A model generated the notes under the pieces. It saw only the letters and a list, made by a program, of their open reading frames with translations, made no database searches and was not told where the DNA came from. DNA of 33,730 nucleotides from Burkholderiaceae bacterium (GTDB taxonomy: Bacteria; Pseudomonadota; Gammaproteobacteria; Burkholderiales; Burkholderiaceae), in the NCBI GenBank assembly GCA_947380285.1, contig CANCQD010000012.1:1-33730 (forward strand). Direction: 5' to 3'. Both the position numbers and the translations under genes were made by a program. Shown piece by piece: positions 5,888-24,090 of the stretch (position 1 is its first letter; each line of letters begins with the position of its first letter).

Positions 5888-7018
5888 ATGCGCATAGGAG
5901 TGCCACTGGAAACAAGGCCCGGGGAAACTCGAGTTGCCGCCACACCAGAAACCGTTAAGAAACTCATCGGCCAAGGTCATACCGTCGTTATTCAAAAAGA
6001 TGCCGGATTAAAAGCCAGTCAACCTGACTCTGCGTACGAAGCTGTCGGCGCAACTATCGGTAGTGCCGCAGATGCATTTGGCTCTGAGATTGTTCTCAAG
6101 GTGCGCGCACCTGAGGGGGCTGAACTCAAGCAAATTAAATCTGGCGCCGTACTTTTGGGCATGCTCGATCCATTTGATAACGACATGATTGCCGCAATGG
6201 CAGCGCAAGGCGTTACCGCATTCTCCTTAGAGGCTGCGCCACGCACAACACGCGCACAAAGCATGGACGTTTTATCCTCTCAAGCAAACATTGCTGGATA
6301 TAAAGCAGTGATGGTTGCTGCTAATGAATATCAACGCTTTATGCCAATGTTGATGACTGCTGCAGGAACCGTGAAAGCAGCTCGCGTACTCATCTTAGGC
6401 GCTGGTGTTGCTGGCTTACAAGCCATCGCTACCGCAAAGCGTCTTGGTGCAGTTATCGAAGCCTCTGATGTGCGCCCTGCCGCTAAAGAACAAATCGAAT
6501 CATTGGGCGCCAAGTTTGTTGACGTTCCTTATGAAACTGATGAAGAACGTGAAATTGCCAAAGGTGTTGGTGGTTATGCCCGCCCAATGCCTGAAGCCTG
6601 GATGAAGCGTCAAGCAGCTTTAGTTGCTGAGCGCGCACAACAGGCTGACATCGTCATTACTACTGCATTAATTCCAGGGCGTAAGCCGCCTGTGCTTTTG
6701 CATAGCGATACTGTTGCCAATATGAAACCAGGCTCAATCGTGATCGACATAGCTGCAGGCAAAGGTGATAACGGTTCAGGTAACTGCCCGCTAACGCAAG
6801 CAGACAAAGTAGTTGATGTGAATGGCGTAAAGATTGTTGGCTACACCAATTTAGCTAGCATGGTCGCAGCAGATGCTTCCGCGCTCTATTCACGCAACCT
6901 GCTCGATTTCATGAAACTTATCGTGGATAAAGACGCCAAGCTGGTTATCCCGAGTGATGATGACATCGTTACTGCTTGCTTAATGTGTCGTGATGGTCAA
7001 GCCATCCGCAAAAACTAA
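5888..7018 (+). CDS. pntAA: Proton-translocating NAD(P)+ transhydrogenase subunit alpha, part 1 (NAD-binding)
   Basis: A 376-residue soluble domain I of the membrane transhydrogenase, which couples proton entry to hydride transfer from NADH to NADP+. It has the N-terminal alanine dehydrogenase/PNT fold (MRIGVPLETRPGETRVA) and the conserved RAQSMDVLSSQANIAGYKA segment at 122-140. The Rossmann NAD-binding motif GAGVAG is at 171-176. The subunit ends before the membrane helices, which are encoded separately downstream, so this is the three-gene form rather than the fused PntA of enterics. The ribosome binding site TTGGAG sits 8-9 bp before the ATG. pntAB follows after 24 bp. Confidence 0.95.
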   Translation: MRIGVPLETRPGETRVAATPETVKKLIGQGHTVVIQKDAGLKASQPDSAYEAVGATIGSAADAFGSEIVLKVRAPEGAELKQIKSGAVLLGMLDPFDNDMIAAMAAQGVTAFSLEAAPRTTRAQSMDVLSSQANIAGYKAVMVAANEYQRFMPMLMTAAGTVKAARVLILGAGVAGLQAIATAKRLGAVIEASDVRPAAKEQIESLGAKFVDVPYETDEEREIAKGVGGYARPMPEAWMKRQAALVAERAQQADIVITTALIPGRKPPVLLHSDTVANMKPGSIVIDIAAGKGDNGSGNCPLTQADKVVDVNGVKIVGYTNLASMVAADASALYSRNLLDFMKLIVDKDAKLVIPSDDDIVTACLMCRDGQAIRKN

Positions 7019-7042
7019 TAGTAAAAATACTAAGGAAACACT

Positions 7043-7381
7043 ATGGATCTCGCTGCCTTTCAAAGCATCCTCACCGTTCAAAACATTACCGTATTTGTGT
7101 TGGCCATTTTTGTTGGCTATCACGTAGTTTGGAACGTGACCCCAGCATTGCACACTCCTTTAATGGCAGTAACCAATGCGATCTCCGGCATCATCATCGT
7201 TGGCGCATTGCTCCAAACTGAAGTTATCGGTGGCGATGAAATCACCCTCACCAGCATTATTGGTGCGGTTGCCGTATTCCTCGCCTCGATCAATATTTTT
7301 GGTGGCTTTATGGTCACCCGTCGCATGCTTGAAATGTTCAAGAAAAAAGCCCCTAAAGCTGATGCGGCTGGAACCAAATAA
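7043..7381 (+). CDS. pntAB: NAD(P) transhydrogenase subunit alpha, part 2 (membrane)
   Basis: A 112-residue membrane protein with three hydrophobic helices (about 13-32, 38-58 and 68-90) and a short Lys-rich tail. The conserved segment [20 protein letters not shown] is typical of the first part of transhydrogenase domain II. It supplies part of the proton channel and pairs with the helices of PntB. AAGGA lies upstream of the ATG. It is the middle gene of the pntAA-pntAB-pntB operon, with 24 and 33 bp to its neighbours. Confidence 0.95.
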
Positions 7382-7414
7382 ACCTAGAACAAGACCCATA
7401 TAGAGACCAAAACT

Positions 7415-8782
7415 ATGTCAAACATAACCGCTATTTCCTATCTCATTTCATCGGTGTTGTTCATCCTCGCTTTGCGCGGCTTATCCTCACCAACCACTTC
7501 ACGTCAAGGCAACACCTTTGGCATGATTGGTATGTTGTTAGCAGTCATCACCACCTTCTTTGTTCCTGATTTCAAGCCAGTCATCTCATTGATTGGTGTT
7601 GCGATCGTAGGTGGCGCCATCATTGGTACGCTTGCTGCTAAGCGCGTACAAATGACTAAGATGCCTGAGTTGGTTGCTCTGATGCACTCCTTTGTAGGTT
7701 TGTCAGCCGTCTTAATTGCGATTGCTGCTGTATTTAATCCAGCACATGACCATACTGGCGCGCAGAAGATTGAACTCTTTATTGGTGCTTTCATTGGCGC
7801 CATCACCTTCACTGCATCTGTTATTGCTTTCGGAAAATTGTCCGGCAAGGTCAGCGGCAAACCAGTGAGCTTTACTGGTCAACACTTGCTGAACTTAGTC
7901 TTAGCAGTTTCGATGGTGGGCGCTGGCGTTGCATATTACATGGGTGATAGCCACGCAGCCTTCTTGGCGATGTGTGCCATTGCCTTGGTATTGGGCGTGA
8001 CCTTGATCATCCCTATTGGTGGTGCTGATATGCCAGTGGTTGTATCAATGCTGAATAGCTACTCTGGTTGGGCTGCTGCCGGTATTGGTTTCACATTGAA
8101 CAACCCAGTATTAATTATTGCTGGTGCTTGCGTTGGCTCATCAGGTGCAATTCTTTCTTACATCATGTGTAAGGCGATGAACCGCTCTATTCTAGCTGTA
8201 TTGCTTGGCGGCTTTGGTGCTGAAGCTGCTGCAGGCGGTGCTGATGATGGCGGTCCCAAGAACTACAAGACTGGCTCACCTGAAGATGCAGCTTTCCTTA
8301 TGGAAAATGCGGACACTGTAATCATCGTTCCTGGCTATGGCTTAGCAGTGGCTCGCGCTCAACACGCCCTCAAAGAATTAACTGAAAAGCTAACTCACCA
8401 TGGCGTTACTGTGAAATACGCTATTCACCCAGTTGCTGGACGTATGCCTGGTCACATGAACGTACTCTTGGCCGAAGCTGAAGTTCCATACGATCAAGTA
8501 TTTGAGATGGAAGACATCAACAGCGACTTTGGTCAGGCAGACGTAGTATTGGTGCTTGGTGCGAACGACGTTGTTAACCCAGCAGCACGCACTCCAGGTA
8601 GTCCAATCTTTGGCATGCCAATTTTGGAGGCATTCAAAGCCAAAACTATTATTGTGAACAAGCGCTCTATGGCAGCTGGTTATGCCGGCTTGGATAACGA
8701 ACTCTTCTACATGGATAAAACCATGATGGTCTTCGGTGATGCGAAGAAAGTTGTCGAAGAGATGGTTAAGGCTGTTGAGTGA
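7415..8782 (+). CDS. pntB: NAD(P) transhydrogenase subunit beta
   Basis: A 455-residue protein. The N-terminal two thirds form membrane domain II, with the strongly conserved ADMPVVVSMLNSYSGWAAA region at 204-222. The C-terminal domain III binds NADP(H): GYGLAVARAQ at 307-316, GRMPGHMNVLLAEA, and GANDVVNPAART. Together with PntAA and PntAB it forms the inner-membrane enzyme that makes NADPH at the expense of proton motive force. It is the last gene of the operon. Downstream there are three hairpins without U-runs rather than a standard terminator. Confidence 0.96.
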   Translation: MSNITAISYLISSVLFILALRGLSSPTTSRQGNTFGMIGMLLAVITTFFVPDFKPVISLIGVAIVGGAIIGTLAAKRVQMTKMPELVALMHSFVGLSAVLIAIAAVFNPAHDHTGAQKIELFIGAFIGAITFTASVIAFGKLSGKVSGKPVSFTGQHLLNLVLAVSMVGAGVAYYMGDSHAAFLAMCAIALVLGVTLIIPIGGADMPVVVSMLNSYSGWAAAGIGFTLNNPVLIIAGACVGSSGAILSYIMCKAMNRSILAVLLGGFGAEAAAGGADDGGPKNYKTGSPEDAAFLMENADTVIIVPGYGLAVARAQHALKELTEKLTHHGVTVKYAIHPVAGRMPGHMNVLLAEAEVPYDQVFEMEDINSDFGQADVVLVLGANDVVNPAARTPGSPIFGMPILEAFKAKTIIVNKRSMAAGYAGLDNELFYMDKTMMVFGDAKKVVEEMVKAVE

Positions 8783-8791
8783 TGTTTAGCA

Positions 8792-8925
8792 GCCTCAAGC
8801 AGTAAGTCTTGAGGCAGAAATAGAGTGTCGGAACCATCTTCCATCCCCCTATCGGGATTGAAGATGGCCACATTTCTGACGTGTTAATCCGCTACGTTTG
8901 GAATCCGAATTCGTATATTCGGATT
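8792..8925. repeat. Cluster of three hairpin-forming inverted repeats in a convergent gap
   Basis: Three separate inverted repeats lie between the stops of pntB (+) and the glycosyltransferase (-). (1) GCCTCAAG 8792-8799 pairs with CTTGAGGC 8808-8815. (2) CCATCTTC 8834-8841 pairs with GAAGATGG 8860-8867, continued inside by ATCCC/GGGAT after one mismatch. (3) AATCCGAAT 8902-8910 pairs with ATTCGGATT 8917-8925. None is followed by a T-run on either strand. They may protect 3' ends or belong to a small RNA; the function is unknown. Confidence 0.6.
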
Positions 8926-8945
8926 ACCCTGTAAGGCTTGCCTTA

Positions 8946-9629
8946 TTAATCAAAGCCCTCGTTAACCCGCAAATAATTTTTCTTCCATACATCGGACATA
9001 GACTCGTTTGCGTAGTCCTTGAAGCATGGGGTGCCCAATGTGTAATGAATTAGCTTTGCATTAGGATTTTCTGGGTATTCAATTGCAAGCCAGTTCCATT
9101 CCGCATCCAGACCACCAATCAAATCATCGTTAAGCCAAGAAAATCGATGTAAGTAGGATCCAGGCTGACTTTGGACAAATTCTGGGGTGAGAACACTATT
9201 GTCTGGATGCCCACAATTCCACAAAATTAAGCTAGACCAATTTTTCCTTGGGTAATCTACATTTTTATTGCCTAGATATTTTTTAATAGCTTTAGTTTTG
9301 TATTCATGTCGCACAACTTGAACAGCCTTATTTTCATCTCGCAGCGCCCACAACTCAGCAATGTCAGCCTGGCACACCATGTCTCCATCTGCAAAGATTG
9401 CCCAGCCAGAAAAGTTCATCAAATAAGGCGTCAAAAATCTTGAATAAACAAACGTGTTACTACCATCCGTATGCACTTCTCTGTATTTGTCTAGTGTGTT
9501 TTCTGCCAGCGGAAGAAATTCAACGGGCATAGTAGCGCGGTCAATAATGGTTTGACAAAAAACATGGTACGCAACGGCTTCTCGCTGATCAAAGCCAACC
9601 ACTAGGTTGATTTTATTTATAGATTTCAT
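8946..9629 (-). CDS. Glycosyltransferase, GT8-like (putative)
   Basis: A 227-residue cytoplasmic protein. The N-terminus INLVVGFDQREAVAYHVF starts a GT-A-like fold, and the metal/nucleotide-sugar DxD motif is seen as DGD at 81-83 (IFADGDMVC). The later NWSSLILWNCGHP and HYTLGTPCF segments match the layout of GT8-like enzymes, which have a conserved His near the C-terminus. Donor and acceptor are unknown; a role in a surface glycan is inferred from the TPR glycosyltransferase and acyltransferase beside it. The start overlaps the end of the upstream TPR glycosyltransferase by 17 bp, so the two are probably translationally coupled. The gene is more AT-rich than its pnt neighbours. Confidence 0.78.
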   Translation of the reverse strand: MKSINKINLVVGFDQREAVAYHVFCQTIIDRATMPVEFLPLAENTLDKYREVHTDGSNTFVYSRFLTPYLMNFSGWAIFADGDMVCQADIAELWALRDENKAVQVVRHEYKTKAIKKYLGNKNVDYPRKNWSSLILWNCGHPDNSVLTPEFVQSQPGSYLHRFSWLNDDLIGGLDAEWNWLAIEYPENPNAKLIHYTLGTPCFKDYANESMSDVWKKNYLRVNEGFD

Positions 9630-11193
9630 TTTTTAGTTTAGAAGCTATGTTGTTAATAGCGCCATTCCATTCGAAATTTTGGCCTTGAGAGTGCAAAGTG
9701 ACACTTGGATACCAGCTACTAATTGCTTCTTCATGCCAATACCAAATTCGCCCAGCTGAGTATGGTACCAATAAAAAAGTTGTCTTACCCAGGGCCCCAG
9801 CCAAATGTGCGGTTACATTGCTGGTAGTAACTATAAGATCGCATGCTTGAATAATGGAAAGCAATCCATCTATATTCTTAAATAAATCAATACCTTCAAT
9901 ACTTGTCAATTTAGTACCAAAATTCTTTTCTAAATTCTGGATTTCTTCCTGAGTATCGCCATACTGCAAATTTATAAATTCACAGCCCTCAGCTTGAAAA
10001 ATCTCATTTAAGTCTGAAAGCAAAATACTTTTATTCTTTCCAATCTTTTCGTTATTACTTCTCCATGCCACACCGCACTTAAATTGTTTTTTAAGGCTAA
10101 ATTTATTTTTGATATCCGTTGTTAACAAAGGATCATCCGCAAGATAAGGGACGCTGCGACCATCCATATCAGGATTTATTTTTAGAATGATGGGGAGGCT
10201 ACCTAGTGGAATCTGCGCATCATATAAGCTGGCATCTAATGGCAATCTATTATCGACAAATTTAAATTCGGGAAAAGATCTAGATAAAATTGGCAATAAT
10301 CTTGCATCGGTATAAAGCGTAATATTTTCTACTTTATTTTTAGCAATTCTTAGCAAAGATGCATAAAAAATAATATCGCCAACACCTTGCTCAGAAAAAA
10401 TGAGTAACCGCTTGCTGTTGGATCCATCCCATAATGCCAAGCCCTCAATTGCCAACTTCAATTGAAAGTCTCTTGTCTTTAACCTCCAGTCGTAGTCTTC
10501 CCACCCAGCCCCATACTTCTTGAGAAATAAATTAAGCAAGGCCTTATTAGACCTGGCCTCAGCATAGTCAGGTCTTATAGCAAGGGCTTTATCGAAGTGA
10601 GTAATAGCCTCGTCATAGCGCTTGTGCTCAGACAGGGTCATCCCCTTATTGGACCAAGCCTCAGCATAGTCAGGTCTTATAGCAAGGGCTTTATCGAAGT
10701 GAGTAATAGCCTCGTCATAGCGCTTAAGCTCATTTAATACATTGCCTTTGTTCGACCAAGCTTCAGCATAGTCAGGCTTCAGGCTAAGAGCTTTATCGAA
10801 GTGAGTAATAGCCTCGTCATAGCGCTTAAGCTCATTTAATACATTGCCTTTGTTCGACCAAGCTTCAGCATAGTCGGATCTTAAAGCAAGGGCTTTATCA
10901 AAAAAATTAGCGGAATTAGTGAACCGTCTAAATTCTTTTTCTATAAGGCCCAAGTTCAAATATGCCTCGCTATTACCGGCATCAATTGAAATAGCTTTTT
11001 CTGCAGCATCTTTGGCTTCAAAATATTTTTTTAACTTTAACTGTGTAGCTGATAAATTTGTCAATGTTGACGACCTATCAGGCATAAGCTCAAGTGATTT
11101 TTTGAACTGATATTCTGCTTGCGAAAATTCTTCGGCCTCTAAAAATTTGCAGCCCTCTAAAAAATATTCTTTTGCTACTTCAAATGTGCTCAT
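9613..11193 (-). CDS. TPR-repeat glycosyltransferase-like protein
   Basis: About 526 residues from the ATG at 11193 (MSTFEVAKEY). The N-terminal half (about 5-230) is a run of 34-residue tetratricopeptide repeats, several almost identical (RYDEAITHFDKAL). The C-terminal half resembles GT9/TPR-linked transferases: FSEQGVGDIIFYASLL near 266-281, then VTTSNVTAHLAGALGKTTFL near the C-terminus, as in ADP-heptose transferase-like folds. Such TPR-GT proteins are often linked to glycosylation of surface proteins or polysaccharide; the target here is unknown. The frame stays open to 11268, but the extra 25 residues do not look like TPR. The 3' end overlaps the GT8-like gene by 17 bp. Parts are very AT-rich: 10321-10380 has 14 G+C in 60. 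Confidence 0.82.
   Translation of the reverse strand: MSTFEVAKEYFLEGCKFLEAEEFSQAEYQFKKSLELMPDRSSTLTNLSATQLKLKKYFEAKDAAEKAISIDAGNSEAYLNLGLIEKEFRRFTNSANFFDKALALRSDYAEAWSNKGNVLNELKRYDEAITHFDKALSLKPDYAEAWSNKGNVLNELKRYDEAITHFDKALAIRPDYAEAWSNKGMTLSEHKRYDEAITHFDKALAIRPDYAEARSNKALLNLFLKKYGAGWEDYDWRLKTRDFQLKLAIEGLALWDGSNSKRLLIFSEQGVGDIIFYASLLRIAKNKVENITLYTDARLLPILSRSFPEFKFVDNRLPLDASLYDAQIPLGSLPIILKINPDMDGRSVPYLADDPLLTTDIKNKFSLKKQFKCGVAWRSNNEKIGKNKSILLSDLNEIFQAEGCEFINLQYGDTQEEIQNLEKNFGTKLTSIEGIDLFKNIDGLLSIIQACDLIVTTSNVTAHLAGALGKTTFLLVPYSAGRIWYWHEEAISSWYPSVTLHSQGQNFEWNGAINNIASKLKNEIYK
10561..10890. repeat. Tandem 102-bp repeats coding for TPR units
   Basis: Units begin at 10561, 10663, 10765 and 10867, with an exact 102-bp period (34 codons). 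The common core AGCATAGTC...CTTTATCGAAGTGAGTAATAGCCTCGTCATAGCGCTT is nearly identical in the first three units at DNA level; the fourth diverges quickly. Synonymous positions are preserved, which suggests recent duplication or gene conversion rather than ancient TPR similarity. Confidence 0.93.
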
Positions 11194-18512: not shown

Positions 18513-18524
18513 TTGGACAGGGTC

Positions 18525-18540
18525 GTAGGACTTTTCCTAC
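18525..18540. promoter_or_regulatory. Perfect inverted repeat, candidate response-regulator operator
   Basis: GTAGGA-CTTT-TCCTAC is a perfect 6-bp inverted repeat. The right half contains TTTCCTA, which equals the heptamer half-site consensus known for BvgA of Bordetella. It lies just downstream of the TATAAT at 18507 and 77 bp upstream of the first gene of an operon coding for a BvgA-like regulator, so autoregulation is plausible. It would also form a short RNA hairpin. Confidence 0.45.
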
Positions 18541-18567
18541 AGATAAATCAGCCCAAAGCCCTTACCG

Positions 18568-18609
18568 CTCCAATCTGTCCTGCCTAGACTGAACAGTCAC
18601 CGATTGGAG
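18568..18609 (+). promoter_or_regulatory. 5' leader hairpin that would mask the Shine-Dalgarno of the EAL-like gene
   Basis: CTCCAATC (18568-18575) is perfectly complementary to GATTGGAG (18602-18609). The right arm contains the GGAG (18606-18609) that is the only good ribosome binding site for the ATG at 18617. A smaller stem GACT-GAAC-AGTC sits inside the loop. If it forms, the ribosome site is paired, which suggests translational control. Confidence 0.5.
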
Positions 18610-18616
18610 AATCCTG

Positions 18617-19459
18617 ATGAGCCCGAAATCCCGGCTGTACACGCTTGTAAAGGCATGGAAGAACAAACCCTTCCAAGAAGTGCGAGACGCCTGTGGCGAC
18701 CCCTGGCTTGGCCTTAGTAACCAAGCCCTTGAAGAACACCAATCCTGGTCCAAGCGACAAGCGATTAGTCATGAACCCATATTTAACTGCAAGGGAACAA
18801 AACTGACAGGATCTTTATTTAGACCACTTCTTACTGCTTCTGACATGCAATTATTACGCCTTTTTATGGAAGGCTTAGACACGATCGCGTATTGGTATCG
18901 AGCTGGTCGCTTTATTCCTGGAATTTTGCCAATACCGACACATGTCTTAGCCTCAAAGGGGTATGTGGATGCAATATGTGAATTAATTCTGAACTCTCGA
19001 CTACCGGTTGGACTAGTAGCCATTGGGATTCAAAAAATTCCTGAGTCCGACATCGCCGATGCTTTTAAGGATGGATTGTTACGTTTGCGACGACTAGGCG
19101 TCTTACTGCATTTCCTCAAATTCACCGGAAGCATTGAGGAGTTGCAGTGGATTACTGATTTGCAATTAGAAGGGGTACATATTGATATGGGTCAGCTTCG
19201 TGAGCGCGAACTGACAAGTGATGCTCTATCCCAATTGAGGCAGTCACCCTATTCACCCACCCAGATTTATGCCAGCAACATTGCATTGGTAAAAGACCTA
19301 GAAAATGCCTGCACTCTTATTGCCGAACACTCTTATGGCAGCCTCATGATGTCACCTTTAAGTCGTCATCAGATGCTGCAAATTAACGATAGTCGTATCG
19401 CTAAAGCTATCTTTTCGCTTCACCCTCATCAACACCCAAACCAAAACGGAGACAAGTAA
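18617..19459 (+). CDS. Degenerate EAL-domain protein (BvgR-like position and size)
   Basis: 280 residues, no signal peptide or membrane helix. The central and C-terminal part (about 60-250) follows the EAL phosphodiesterase layout: LLRLRRLGVLLHFLKFTGS at 154-172 stands where LR-LG-DDFGTG is expected. LQLEGVHIDMGQL (182-194) replaces the PVD-LKID strand, and GSLMMSPLS (241-249) replaces the QGY-fSRP end. The catalytic EAL, DDFGTG and AEGVE residues are not there, so cyclic-di-GMP hydrolysis is unlikely; binding or protein contact is more likely. The stop overlaps the next start by 1 bp (TAATG), placing it in one operon with a BvgA/BvgS-type pair. Bordetella BvgR, also an EAL-like protein of similar length, is the closest functional parallel; this is inference. 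The ATG at 18617 has GGAG 7 bp upstream. Confidence 0.68.
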   Translation: MSPKSRLYTLVKAWKNKPFQEVRDACGDPWLGLSNQALEEHQSWSKRQAISHEPIFNCKGTKLTGSLFRPLLTASDMQLLRLFMEGLDTIAYWYRAGRFIPGILPIPTHVLASKGYVDAICELILNSRLPVGLVAIGIQKIPESDIADAFKDGLLRLRRLGVLLHFLKFTGSIEELQWITDLQLEGVHIDMGQLRERELTSDALSQLRQSPYSPTQIYASNIALVKDLENACTLIAEHSYGSLMMSPLSRHQMLQINDSRIAKAIFSLHPHQHPNQNGDK

Positions 19460-20082
19460 TGAGAAAACGCGTGATGTTGGTAGATGACCATCCAGCAATG
19501 CTGATGGCTCTTAAAAGTATGTTGCAAGACCAGTTACTCTTTGAAATTGCAGGGCAAGCCCAGAATGGGGAGGAGTGCCTCAGATCCATGAAGGAGGTTA
19601 ATCCTAATATGGTGATTTTGGATCTGGATATGCCCAAGACCGATGGCTTTGACGTTATCCGCCGCATTGGACTAATGTATCCCGATGTTCGTATGCTAGT
19701 TCTCTCGAGTATGGATGAGGCAGTCTACGGCGGCAGAGTCCGCTCCTTGGGCGGGCATGGTTTTGTGAATAAAACTGCTGGGGCTGATGTCATCCTAGCT
19801 GCCTGCGTTGCGATCTCTCAAGGTTATAACTTTTTCACCCATGGAAAAAATGGCAATAGCTCATTAAGTGATAACGATAAGCTGGCACTAATCTCTGATC
19901 GTGAGTTGCAAGTCATGAAGTACCTCGGCAAAGGCAATACCAATCAACAGATATCTGACATGTTGCATATCAGCAATAAGACTGTTGCAACCTACAAAAC
20001 CAGAGTCTTTGACAAGCTAGGTATTAATAATATTGCTGACCTTATTTTGTTCTGTCGCATGAATAATATTATCGAAAGCTAA
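19459..20082 (+). CDS. LuxR/NarL-family response regulator, BvgA/EvgA-like
   Basis: 207 residues. The receiver domain (1-120) has the acidic pair D9/D10 (VDDHP), phospho-acceptor D55 (VILDLDMPKTDG), the switch S83/S84 (VLSS) and K105 (VNKTAG). The LuxR-type helix-turn-helix follows at about 143-203, with SDRELQVMKYLGKGNTNQQISDMLHIS and TVATYKTRVFDKL. Length and domain make-up match BvgA/EvgA. It should bind DNA as a phosphorylated dimer and receive phosphate from the hybrid kinase encoded 6 bp downstream. It is coupled to the EAL-like gene by a 1-bp start/stop overlap. Target genes are unknown; the inverted repeat at 18525 is a candidate site. Confidence 0.92.
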   Translation: MRKRVMLVDDHPAMLMALKSMLQDQLLFEIAGQAQNGEECLRSMKEVNPNMVILDLDMPKTDGFDVIRRIGLMYPDVRMLVLSSMDEAVYGGRVRSLGGHGFVNKTAGADVILAACVAISQGYNFFTHGKNGNSSLSDNDKLALISDRELQVMKYLGKGNTNQQISDMLHISNKTVATYKTRVFDKLGINNIADLILFCRMNNIIES

Positions 20083-20088
20083 TTCAGC

Positions 20089-22512
20089 ATGCATCGATCC
20101 ATCATCCGTATTGCAGTCTGCATCTTGTTTAATGGGGTGCTAGGCAATGCATATGCAAATTTACTGAGTCCAGTTGAGCAGCAGTGGATCGATGCCCATC
20201 CCGTAGTGCGTTTTAGTATTCATGAAAAATACGCCCCGTATTTAGAGGTAACCGAAAGGAGTGAATACGGAATCTTTCATAACGTATTAAGCAAGTTGGG
20301 TGAATTTACCAAGCAAGAATTTATACCAAAGTGGCGCAAGAACGATAAAGAAGGGTTGCAGCAGCTTGCCAATGGGGAGGTGGACTTCATGATTGATCCG
20401 CCCTCATTAAATGATGATTACCTCAAGTTTGGATCTCTATCAGAGGCAATCTTCTGGGGCCAAGACGCTGTTCTGACAAAACGGTCAAAAAACGATACGC
20501 CTATTGACCCAATCAATATTGCCTACTTTGACCGTGGCTTTGAAAACCCGCCAATACCCAATCACCCTCAAGCTAGCATTTCTAGTCATGCCGAGAAATT
20601 GGTTTTTGATCTTCTCAAAAACGATATAGAAGCAATTGTTTTGCCGCTTCGATTAGCGCAGCAACTCATTCAAAAATTAAGCCCTGATAGGTTACAAGTG
20701 GATGGGCTTTATAGCCGAGAACCATTTGCATATCGCTGGCTTATTGCCCACCAGGATGAGGCTTTACATGGTGTACTGGATCATTTTCTACGTAACTTAG
20801 ATCCAATCGCATCGCGTCAACTTTTTAGCATCAACGCATCCACTTTAGAGGAAGTTCCTTCTCCTGCAAACCATTTGCCTTGGCTCTCCACTCTAGGAAT
20901 CCTATTACTAGGATCTTACTTAATCTGGCGCATGCATCAAAAGCAATCCCTGCAAAGACAAGAGGTGCAAGAACTAATGTCATCCAAAGAGCAGGCTGAA
21001 AATGCGAATGCTGCAAAGTCTACTTTTCTGGCAACCATGAGCCATGAGATCCGCACCCCAATGAATGCTATTTTGGGAGTGCAGGAGCTATTGCTCAGCA
21101 GCCCACTACCTGCAAATGAAAAAACCTTACTTAAAAGCGCGCATTCTTCTGCAGAATCTCTCTTAGGAATCCTCAATCAAGTTCTAGACCTCTCAAAGAT
21201 CGAGGCTGGAAAGCTCACACTCAATATTGAACCTTGCAATCTCAATAGCTTGATTGATAACATTGATTCAGCATTTGCAACCGTAGCTCAAAGGCAAAAT
21301 CTCAAACTGTATACCTCTAAAGATCCACGTATTGCAGAGGTTTTAATGCTCGATACCTTGCGCTTGCGTCAAGTATTACAAAACCTGATTAGCAATGCGA
21401 TTAAATTTACCAATAGCGGTGAAATCTATTTCTCAATTAGCGTACTTGCAGATGATCATGCTGGCCAGCTAATTGAATTCAGGGTAATCGATACAGGCAT
21501 TGGCATGGGTAAAGAGGAGATCGCAATTGCACTTCAAGCATTTGAGCAAATCCCAGGTAATGCCGAACAGCAGAATGGAACCGGTCTTGGTCTAACCATA
21601 ACAAACCACTTAGTCACTTCCATGAATGGTCAGCTCTACTTTGAGAGCGCCCCTGGCTTTGGTAGCAATATCCATTTTTGCCTTGCATTCCCACGCACCA
21701 GTATTGCCGCAACTAGAACCTTAACGCCAGAACATACCAATGCCTCTAGAAAGCTAGTATCGAAGCATGCTCAAAGCAATGAGCGCCCTCTACAAGCGCT
21801 AGTGGTCGAAGATCATCCTGCTAGCCGTCAAATCATTTCTCTCCAGCTTCAGGCTTTGGGTATTGAGGCATCCGTTTGCGATAACGCTAGCACCGCACTA
21901 GCTTTAATCAGCCAAAAGCATTTTGATCTTCTTCTAACGGACCAGTCCATTCCCGGAATGCAGGGGTCAGATCTTGCCAAGCACCTACGGAATAAAGGAT
22001 ATCGAGATCTCATCATCATTGGGATCACTGCAGATATTTATGCACTAGACTCGCGCCATCAATTTTTAGAGGCGGGCATGAATGGGGTCCTAATAAAACC
22101 CTTGAGTCTCATGACTTTAGAAAATGAGCTTTGTCGTTATTTCCAAAACGAGGGTTCTACTGATAAAACCGCACCTATTAGGATCCAAGATGAATATTCG
22201 TTCGATGCCTTCGAAAATCTCTTAAGAAGTAGTCCGAAATATATTCTGGTCATCCTTGAGGAAATTAAAAAGGTTCATGATGAAGCTCTTTTATCGCTTA
22301 AAGAGGAATCTATAGATGAGGCAAGCTTTAGTGCTATGGTGCATAAGGTTAAGGGAGGAGCCCAACTAGTTAGTGCTACAAAATTTATTCAAGCATGTGA
22401 AGCTTTGGAGCAAACAGGGATGCTGGACCATCGAATCCAAACTTTTATCCAATTGCTTGAAGAGCAAAATCAAATGATTACCGGATATCAAGCAAGATAT
22501 TCAAAGCTTTAG
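20089..22512 (+). CDS. Hybrid sensor histidine kinase, BvgS/EvgS-like
   Basis: 807 residues. Signal peptide about 1-23; one periplasmic Venus-flytrap domain (SBP_bac_3-like, about 28-248, beginning EQQWIDAHPVVRFSI); membrane helix about 264-281; a short helical linker rich in Gln/Glu/Ala (283-312); HisKA with phospho-His H319 (MSHEIRTPMN); ATPase with N436 (NLISNAIKF), DTGIGM (468-473) and GTGLGL (497-502). Then comes a receiver with E574/D575, D618 (LLTDQSIPGM) and K670, and a C-terminal Hpt with H752 (VHKVKGGAQL). The phosphorelay order His-Asp-His to the upstream regulator is that of BvgS/EvgS. It differs from BvgS in having one flytrap domain and no PAS domain. It lies 6 bp after the response regulator gene. 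The ligand is unknown. Confidence 0.92.
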   Translation: MHRSIIRIAVCILFNGVLGNAYANLLSPVEQQWIDAHPVVRFSIHEKYAPYLEVTERSEYGIFHNVLSKLGEFTKQEFIPKWRKNDKEGLQQLANGEVDFMIDPPSLNDDYLKFGSLSEAIFWGQDAVLTKRSKNDTPIDPINIAYFDRGFENPPIPNHPQASISSHAEKLVFDLLKNDIEAIVLPLRLAQQLIQKLSPDRLQVDGLYSREPFAYRWLIAHQDEALHGVLDHFLRNLDPIASRQLFSINASTLEEVPSPANHLPWLSTLGILLLGSYLIWRMHQKQSLQRQEVQELMSSKEQAENANAAKSTFLATMSHEIRTPMNAILGVQELLLSSPLPANEKTLLKSAHSSAESLLGILNQVLDLSKIEAGKLTLNIEPCNLNSLIDNIDSAFATVAQRQNLKLYTSKDPRIAEVLMLDTLRLRQVLQNLISNAIKFTNSGEIYFSISVLADDHAGQLIEFRVIDTGIGMGKEEIAIALQAFEQIPGNAEQQNGTGLGLTITNHLVTSMNGQLYFESAPGFGSNIHFCLAFPRTSIAATRTLTPEHTNASRKLVSKHAQSNERPLQALVVEDHPASRQIISLQLQALGIEASVCDNASTALALISQKHFDLLLTDQSIPGMQGSDLAKHLRNKGYRDLIIIGITADIYALDSRHQFLEAGMNGVLIKPLSLMTLENELCRYFQNEGSTDKTAPIRIQDEYSFDAFENLLRSSPKYILVILEEIKKVHDEALLSLKEESIDEASFSAMVHKVKGGAQLVSATKFIQACEALEQTGMLDHRIQTFIQLLEEQNQMITGYQARYSKL

Positions 22513-22560: not shown

Positions 22561-24090
22561 ATGGGCCCTTACATCCGACATTCAGCCGTCTTAATAGCAA
22601 CTACCTTTTGGCTAGCCAGCTCTTACGCCGCTACCAATGAAACTGCGCCCCTCAGCATCCCTAAGGTTGTAGTCAGTAGCCTAGAACGCAACCAGATTCC
22701 TCTCGATACTGTCAGTATTTCAGTTGTGGAAATCGAGTCTGGAAGTCCTGGAAAACATGTCGCCAAGAAAATGTTGGATTGGCGTGCTAATGAGCCAATG
22801 AACCCAGCTTCAACAATGAAGTTATTAACAACGCTTACTGGTCTAGACATATTAGGCCCCCAATATCGTTGGCGCACCAATATATTTACCGATGGCGTAA
22901 TTCGTCAAGGCACCCTCAAGGGTAATGTGTATTTGCAAGGTACCGGTGATCCGAAGCTCGTTCCCGAAGAACTTGCGAAGATGATGAAAGAGCTTCAGAG
23001 TCTGGGTATTCAGAAGATAGATGGCAACTTATTCTTTGATCGCAGCGCTTATGCGCCGAGCGTAATGGAGCACAACACCATTGATGGTGAATCCTTGCGT
23101 GCCTATAACGTTCCACCAGATCCTTTACTGTATGCATTTAGAACACTTTCGTTTCAGTTGAGCAAGTCACGTACCGCTGACTTTATCGACATCAGCTACA
23201 CACCAGCACTTTCTCAACTGAAGGTGTCTAACCAAATGCAGTTAGTTGATCGCTCATGCGACAACTGGAAAAGTAATATTCGTTTTAATTTAGATCCAGA
23301 AGGCGTAAGTAACACTGATCAACCTTTAACCGCACAGTTCTCTGGAGCATTTCCCAACACCTGCAAAGGGGTGAACTTTAATGTTGTTGCACTAGATGCC
23401 AATACCTTTCTAACGCAAGGCTTTGCTGCCGCCTGGGAGATGTCTGGTGGTACTTGGGTACGACCACCAGTGGGTAAAAACGGTAATGTGCCACTGGCAG
23501 CAAGACTGCTGCTTCAATTTGAGGGCATTGTACTGGCGGATGATATTTTGGATATTAATAAATATTCCAACAACGTGATGGCACGCCAACTGCTATTAAC
23601 CCTAGCCTTAGAAAAAATGGGGAAACCTGCTACTACTACCAATGGAGAACTCGTTATTCAGAGTTGGCTTAAGCAAAATGCTTTAGATTTTCAAGGTCTA
23701 GTAATTGAGAATGGCTCTGGTCTATCTCGTAATGAAGCAATCTCCGCCAGCCAAATGAATCAACTCTTACTAACCGCACGTAATTTAACGGTAGGCGATA
23801 TTTTTTATAATAGTCTGCCAATTGCGGGTACAGATGGCACGATGCGAAATCGCCTAATGAGTCAGCTTCGTAAGTTTTTGCATCTCAAGAAAAAGCCTGA
23901 AGCCAGAATAAAAACCGGCTCTCTTGCAGATGTGCGAGCAATCTCAGGTTATGTTTTAAGCAAATCTGGGAAGATGTATGCAGTAACTTCATTCATCAAC
24001 CACCCCAATGCCTGGAGAGGATTAGAAGCCCACGATCAGTTGCTATCGTGGCTACTAGAAGATGGGCCAGAGCCAAAGCATGCGCGTTGA
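22561..24090 (+). CDS. dacB: D-alanyl-D-alanine carboxypeptidase/endopeptidase, PBP4 type (S13)
   Basis: 509 residues, exported (hydrophobic signal about 8-23, then SYAATNE). The three active-site motifs of penicillin-binding peptidase family S13 are seen: SxxK as S84-T-M-K87 (NPASTMKL), SNN at 337-339 (KYSNNVMARQ), and KTG at 452-454 (IKTGSLADVRAISGY). It trims or cuts peptide cross-links in periplasmic peptidoglycan. The ATG at 22561 is fixed by an in-frame TAG two codons upstream; the only AGGA sits 1-2 bases from it, which is unusually tight. It starts 48 bp after the hybrid kinase gene, so read-through from that operon is possible. Its 3' end overlaps the convergent sua5-type gene by 55 bp. 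Confidence 0.92.
   Translation: MGPYIRHSAVLIATTFWLASSYAATNETAPLSIPKVVVSSLERNQIPLDTVSISVVEIESGSPGKHVAKKMLDWRANEPMNPASTMKLLTTLTGLDILGPQYRWRTNIFTDGVIRQGTLKGNVYLQGTGDPKLVPEELAKMMKELQSLGIQKIDGNLFFDRSAYAPSVMEHNTIDGESLRAYNVPPDPLLYAFRTLSFQLSKSRTADFIDISYTPALSQLKVSNQMQLVDRSCDNWKSNIRFNLDPEGVSNTDQPLTAQFSGAFPNTCKGVNFNVVALDANTFLTQGFAAAWEMSGGTWVRPPVGKNGNVPLAARLLLQFEGIVLADDILDINKYSNNVMARQLLLTLALEKMGKPATTTNGELVIQSWLKQNALDFQGLVIENGSGLSRNEAISASQMNQLLLTARNLTVGDIFYNSLPIAGTDGTMRNRLMSQLRKFLHLKKKPEARIKTGSLADVRAISGYVLSKSGKMYAVTSFINHPNAWRGLEAHDQLLSWLLEDGPEPKHAR

Follow-up and report, generated by a model that had tools for sequence, protein, structure and literature searches.

An EAL-type protein without catalytic residues heads a Bvg/Evg-type phosphorelay operon of Polynucleobacter

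The sensor kinase BvgS combines two tandem flytrap domains with a PAS domain, RocR and PvrR of Pseudomonas, which are active phosphodiesterases, fuse an N-terminal receiver of their own to an EAL domain, and YdiV of E. coli is a degenerate EAL protein that has no phosphodiesterase activity and acts directly on a regulator. According to the excerpts available, BluF of E. coli also has an EAL domain devoid of phosphodiesterase activity that acts directly on a regulator, and the RocSAR/PvrSR network includes an EAL response regulator alongside histidine kinases and response regulators of the transcriptional type. BvgR, in the portions of the literature drawn on here, is an EAL-type protein lacking catalytic residues and is described as being controlled by the regulator of BvgAS (PMC11537037, PMC12805831, PMC1557856), while the MrgRS pair of Burkholderia pseudomallei is followed downstream by an EAL-like ORF1 with 25% identity to BvgR (excerpts of PMC1557856). 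Here we describe a locus of related composition in a stretch of 33,730 nucleotides from a Burkholderiaceae bacterium (positions 1 to 33,730 of contig CANCQD010000012.1, assembly GCA_947380285.1; hereafter the window), in which the gene of a stand-alone EAL-type protein, called EALL below, precedes those of a response regulator (RR) and a hybrid kinase (HK) (Table 1). Among the titles and abstract beginnings listed in open-licence literature on two-component systems, cyclic di-GMP (c-di-GMP) and histidine kinases or response regulators of Polynucleobacter, none deals with this operon.

The EALL-RR-HK operon is a core system of Polynucleobacter, a freshwater genus. With a probability of about 0.5 we read it as a Bvg/Evg-type phosphorelay under positive autoregulation, whose catalytically dead EAL protein acts by binding to other proteins, with no requirement for c-di-GMP. 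The features that carry this reading, all taken from sequence, are the conserved order of the operon, the EAL fold, the catalytic loss, an intact His-Asp-His-Asp relay, a conserved inverted repeat at the promoter, the joint inheritance of EALL and RR, and the selection that EALL remains under where searches detected no GGDEF protein.

Table 1. Features of the operon region, in positions of the window
Feature	Position	Strand	Remark
Nucleotide-conserved block, promoter and about the first 70 EALL codons, core and B lineages	18522..18822	+	
Inverted repeat GTAGGA-N4-TCCTAC	18525..18540	.	Probably bound by the regulator that the operon encodes
Putative promoter TTACCG-N17-TAGACT	18562..18590	+	By-eye reading of the conserved block
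EALL, stand-alone EAL-fold protein without catalytic residues, 280 aa	18617..19459	+	
RR, EvgA/BvgA-type response regulator, 207 aa	19459..20082	+	
HK, hybrid kinase, 807 aa	20089..22512	+	
dacB-like gene (name from sequence, no family search)	22561..24090	+	48 bp 3′ of HK

Gene order, distribution and relation to known systems

RR, a receiver joined to a GerE helix-turn-helix and nearest to EvgA/BvgA, and HK, which unites a periplasmic flytrap, HisKA, HATPase, receiver and Hpt domains, resemble BvgAS/EvgAS, as the initial annotation had proposed. The likeness to the bvgAS-bvgR arrangement, also pointed out there, is borne out as well: EALL shares with BvgR, as the latter is portrayed in the excerpts cited above, its stand-alone EAL-type architecture, the absence of catalytic residues and the tie to a Bvg-type relay. 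However, bvgR lies downstream in convergent orientation as a unit of its own, whereas the EALL gene comes first, is colinear with RR and overlaps it by 1 bp (TAATG), and EALL persists even where searches reveal no GGDEF protein. Since the gene position differs, EALL is not filed as BvgR; by analogy it would work like BvgR, to which it is likened by description. MrgRS with ORF1 similarly presents a Bvg-type pair and a neighbouring EAL-like gene of the same direction, but ORF1 lies downstream behind a terminator (excerpts of PMC1557856), whereas EALL stands upstream with its short overlap. The combination of kinase, transcriptional regulator and EAL protein recalls the RocSAR/PvrSR network; unlike RocR and PvrR, EALL gives no receiver match in a domain search, and the model of PvrR matches it only over residues 78-161 (E 0.016). 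BluF and YdiV, comparable through inactive EAL domains, differ from EALL in domain make-up and partners.

The window is read as part of a Polynucleobacter chromosome on the grounds that the named top matches of EALL are Polynucleobacter proteins called "diguanylate phosphodiesterase" and that the flanks look housekeeping, the names of the flanking genes being taken from sequence reading with no family search behind them. The nearest genome examined, G001, has 34% of sampled 31-letter words in common with the window and presumably belongs to the same genus. EALL is present in 169 of 186 genomes of the genus and in 138 of the 144 classed as near-complete (completeness 90%, contamination no higher than 5%). 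Because the operon is thus an ordinary core system of the genus, its initial portrayal as a host-adaptation system in a free-living bacterium is not supported. In the 127 genomes where the locus was read, an RR of at least 200 aa lies directly downstream of EALL in 123 and HK directly follows RR in 122; wherever EALL reaches at least 260 aa, it is adjoined by such an RR (116/116 loci). The order and junctions of the three-gene operon stand as annotated, and a first gene regularly separate from the regulator/kinase pair, which the initial annotation had named as a refuting outcome, is not what these Polynucleobacter loci show. The four exceptions to RR adjacency are two decayed loci (L088 and L096), one contig end (L098) and L097, in which the longest EALL fragment is not the last one and RR is intact. 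RR was also searched in 16 chosen genomes, including all six near-complete ones without EALL: four of these (G003, G051, G060, G092) gave no match at E 1e-20 and two (G135, G142) only matches of 29% and 32% identity, so that an RR orthologue was seen in none of the six and, at the level of gene content, EALL and RR are co-inherited.

Among 299 sampled genomes of the family (the genus included), the out-of-genus matches of an EALL profile (A2) were weak and came from 11 genomes, with E between 5e-8 and 6e-4; ten lie in frames of 456-1170 aa and the remaining one, in G192, in a 264-aa protein with EAL, DDFG and AEGVE motifs intact; the RR profile falls from E 9e-105 or better within the genus to 1e-55 outside (259 family genomes). 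In 20 hand-chosen neighbourhoods (17 genomes) around the nearest RR relatives of other genera the trio was found in none, a hybrid kinase in five and an EAL-like gene in one. This last locus (L300, from another genus of the family) encodes a 322-aa EAL-like protein (950-1918) without EAL, DDFG and AEGVE motifs; about 4 kb downstream of it, the region 5995-10373 contains a regulator of Bvg type together with a kinase frame of 1287 aa.

Most loci long enough to show their flanks have a divergent groES-groEL pair upstream of the operon and a dacB-like gene downstream. The latter, on the strand of HK and often 20-60 bp behind it (loci L039-L133), is possibly the last gene of the same transcript, its membership being uncertain; no terminator-like site is listed in the HK-dacB interval of the window, and the gene may be either a member or a target of the operon.

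The encoded proteins

The structure prediction suggested in the initial annotation, compared with EAL domains, returned for EALL a confident model of EAL fold, so that a missing EAL fold, the other refuting outcome named there, did not come about. Each of 37 members keeps 0-2 of 13 catalytic positions (E-A-L, DDFG, AEGVE and metal ligands), and the residues by which active EALs contact c-di-GMP or metal have for the most part been substituted. By its residues EALL is thus a pseudo-phosphodiesterase and not an active EAL phosphodiesterase of the PF00563 type, and its early designation as a dead EAL protein holds. The segments most conserved within the core set are 2-72 and 241-270; over 46 core sequences mean identity to the window amounts to 98.8% for residues 2-20 and to 66.6% for the barrel part 131-200. 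The former active-site positions E53, P105, G137, H188 and Y240 carry new residues with conservation percentiles of 0.88-0.98, and other pocket positions (K140, L167, D190) are poorly conserved (0.21-0.47), the mapping of pocket positions resting partly on manual reading. An N-terminal amphipathic membrane helix was considered and found unsupported, with a hydrophobic moment in core lineages of 0.29 vs 0.28 in shuffles; some deep lineages have moderately higher values (0.39-0.49, p 0.05-0.19). A second family of stand-alone EAL-like proteins of 261-283 aa also occurs in Polynucleobacter (L134:2881-3729, L135:2010-2861, L136:2881-3666); it keeps an EAF motif, its N-terminus (IPSKTRLF in L134) resembles that of EALL, and a cysteine-synthase-like gene (name from sequence) lies nearby in two of the three loci. 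Between the L134 paralogue and EALL, BLASTP gives only E 0.039.

RR contains a receiver with D55 and K105 followed by a GerE/LuxR helix-turn-helix. Its best NCBIfam model is EvgA with 137 bits and its best PDB match is likewise EvgA (E 6.3e-32); since the equivalog cut-off of 251 is not reached, RR is not considered as EvgA itself. The three proteins evolve at different rates: the ratio of nonsynonymous to synonymous divergence (dN/dS) and the mean identity to the window are 0.014 and 97.8% for RR and 0.116 and 81.4% for EALL (46 core sequences each), and HK is much more variable than both, with saturated synonymous sites (17 sequences).

The domains of HK are a flytrap (about residues 26-251), HisKA (309-374, H319), HATPase (422-534), receiver (571-678, D618) and Hpt (723-796, H752), with a predicted long helix at 263-291 read as transmembrane. 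Hpt scores below the Pfam cut-off, yet its histidine is invariant, as are H319 and D618, in 88 of 88 kinases (those longer than 500 aa, the window included, two fragments left out). Unlike BvgS, HK shows a single flytrap in the structure model and no PAS match in the domain search, so that the kinase was rightly called trimmed. In some lineages the trimming goes further. The number of residues preceding the phospho-histidine motif in 89 HK frames is about 309-339 in 67, 216-217 in five and about 54-151 in 13, the remaining four being fragments or single cases and the value of 151 (L126) depending on the chosen start. Such lengths leave no room for a flytrap in these 13 kinases, and EALL is kept in their loci. 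In three Polynucleobacter loci (L124, L069, L086) HK is split or shortened into two frames beside intact EALL and RR.

The promoter repeat and the conserved 5′ end

The inverted repeat starts about 93 bp 5′ of the EALL start codon, and in its right arm it overlaps the heptamer TTTCCTA, which has been published as a half-site for BvgA. Inverted TTTCCTA heptamers constitute a high-affinity BvgA site (excerpts of PMC4314077), and the likeness concerns the half-site sequence. Written as TGTAGG-N6-CCTACA, a motif derived from the same 116 loci on which it was scored, the repeat keeps at least 10 of 12 positions in 106 of the 116 upstream regions; the ten falling below this are L058 and nine regions from lineages F (five) and G (four). 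The exact pattern GTAGGNNNNTTCCTAC stands 5′ of EALL in 24 of 26 whole genomes. RR may well be the protein binding this repeat, and autoregulation of the operon appears likely. The repeat centre is situated about 64 bp upstream of the transcription start deduced from the putative promoter.

A wider regulon was searched for and rejected. Across the 26 genomes the exact pattern occurs elsewhere at three sites vs six matches of the reversed control, and with two mismatches allowed the control beats the real pattern in 14 of 14 genomes, among the matches listed; as sites outside the operon are no commoner than the control, no regulon is called. In three genomes (L250, L251, L252) another inverted repeat, GCAGG...CCTGCA, lies just 3′ of a ClpB-like gene (name from sequence), perhaps as the site of another factor.

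Conservation of the block extends from the promoter into the coding region and is visible at synonymous sites. In 17 core sequences synonymous divergence over EALL codons 2-71 is 0.00-0.51 per ten-codon bin, rising to 0.68-0.76 over the three bins that follow and standing at 0.69 for the remainder of the gene. At the same loci the starts of HK and dacB lack such conservation and RR has it over about 20 codons only; in groES and groEL synonymous divergence is low throughout. The effect is seen in lineage B, is weaker elsewhere and is absent in E2, F1 and G2. Part of it may serve translation. RNAalifold on 24 sequences gave, for the coding strand, z -2.4 (-100 to 0) and -3.5 (+20 to +120), and for the opposite strand z -3.3 (-100 to 0), a value to which the inverted repeat itself contributes. 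The two strongest hairpins provide no testable covariation since they are nearly invariant in 77 sequences, and an Rfam search of the leader yielded only two matches, with E 2.0 and 4.2; a structured RNA leader or other RNA element at this end is a candidate only. As to an overlapping gene, the longest shared open stretches in other frames span 20-58 codons vs 108 in the frame of EALL itself; both sequence groups have in common an antisense stretch of 38 codons.

c-di-GMP and possible roles of the EAL-like protein

GGDEF domains (PF00990) were found in 128 of the 186 genomes and in 104 of the 144 near-complete ones. No GGDEF match was obtained in 39 of the 138 near-complete EALL-bearing genomes, nor a PilZ match in any of the 39; when 12 of them were searched again with a Polynucleobacter GGDEF domain, the best E was 0.16, the control G001 giving five matches. 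Selection was assessed in the 117 of these 138 genomes for which the locus was read. An intact EALL occurs in 29 of the 31 genomes without a GGDEF match and in 78 of the 86 that have one (Fisher p 1.0). For codons 75-245 the median dN/dS, in pairs with a synonymous divergence of 0.08-0.6, is 0.100 when both members lack GGDEF (18 pairs) and 0.089 when both have it (131 pairs). As EALL stays intact and constrained where GGDEF genes go undetected, its retention does not require c-di-GMP from GGDEF proteins. For the same reason the c-di-GMP link suggested by the initial annotation is not supported as what EALL does in general. EALL may nevertheless bind c-di-GMP in strains having the messenger, probably including that of the window, whose own lineage may still have c-di-GMP to judge from the five GGDEF matches in G001.

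The favoured mechanism, a relay with a protein-binding EALL, would proceed as follows. Phosphorylated RR would bind the inverted repeat and activate the operon; EALL would be translated from the start of the message and coupled to RR via the TAATG overlap; it would then make contact with RR or HK, using the conserved segments at its two termini together with the altered barrel top, and adjust the relay after this contact, probably as feedback. Several observations weigh against it. EALL is broken or partial beside an intact RR in seven loci (eight with L097), so RR is independent of EALL. The contact of EALL with RR or HK is one that we infer, and the N-terminus need not mark an interaction surface, because its prediction is poor (pLDDT below 50 in residues 1-33) and its conservation is partly of nucleotide level. 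The hexamers of the putative promoter are not called by a consensus promoter scan, for which reason this promoter is one that we only infer. Finally, the dN/dS pairs are non-independent, selection may be slightly weaker in the absence of GGDEF (Mann-Whitney p 0.06), and some EALL-bearing genomes may have lost their GGDEF genes recently.

A broader picture, put forward tentatively, depicts EALL as a genus-wide BvgR-like pseudo-phosphodiesterase working without c-di-GMP, its pocket rebuilt, as a cytosolic input or feedback partner of a relay whose periplasmic sensor was lost in some lineages. The circuit would then be chiefly a closed autoregulatory loop, since the sole perfect site in nearly every searched genome is that of its own promoter.

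The loci with damaged EALL, which mark it as the more dispensable part next to RR, also bear on the rather unlikely alternative that EALL is an RR-controlled output acting on another regulator or complex with no feedback on the relay, as BvgR does on other genes of Bordetella. RR and HK can stay intact beside a broken EALL (L075, L095, L097), and BvgA~P is described as activating the expression of BvgR, which silences other genes while having no DNA-binding domain (excerpts of PMC12805831); however, an output gene would be expected to relocate occasionally, and EALL is first in the operon, with its copies of at least 260 aa always adjoining RR in the loci read. Less probable still is a non-catalytic c-di-GMP receptor through which the second messenger would be connected with the relay, a role that has been proposed for BvgR. 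The nearest genome, G001, with its five GGDEF, three EAL and three PilZ matches, would suit such a receptor, but the 39 genomes without a GGDEF match and the replacement of most positions contacting the ligand or metal speak against it, and EALL is broken in 2 of 31 genomes without GGDEF vs 8 of 86 with it, that is, not oftener. The pocket might instead have been rebuilt for another ligand, making EALL a cytosolic sensor of the relay, particularly where the kinase has no flytrap. This we hold improbable, although it is kept in consideration because several old pocket positions, among the most conserved columns, are preserved in new form and EALL remains beside the 13 kinases with short sensor parts; other pocket positions vary and the conserved residues may merely hold the fold. 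The first 70 codons, conserved at nucleotide level in core lineages, and the breakage of EALL beside intact RR could also hint at an almost neutral relic, of which just the conserved 5′ end would count, in its capacity as DNA or RNA (promoter, leader, coupling to RR). This is very improbable in view of dN/dS of about 0.09-0.10 across codons 75-245 and the confident fold model.

In the excerpts consulted, the mechanism of BvgR and its dependence on c-di-GMP are treated as open (PMC11537037, PMC12805831). In this respect Polynucleobacter provides a natural experiment, as searches detect no diguanylate cyclase gene in some of its genomes, which yet keep the EAL-like gene under selection, and strains with and without GGDEF genes could separate a c-di-GMP model from a c-di-GMP-free one directly. 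The genus also shows a relay that loses its outside sensor yet keeps its EAL-like partner.

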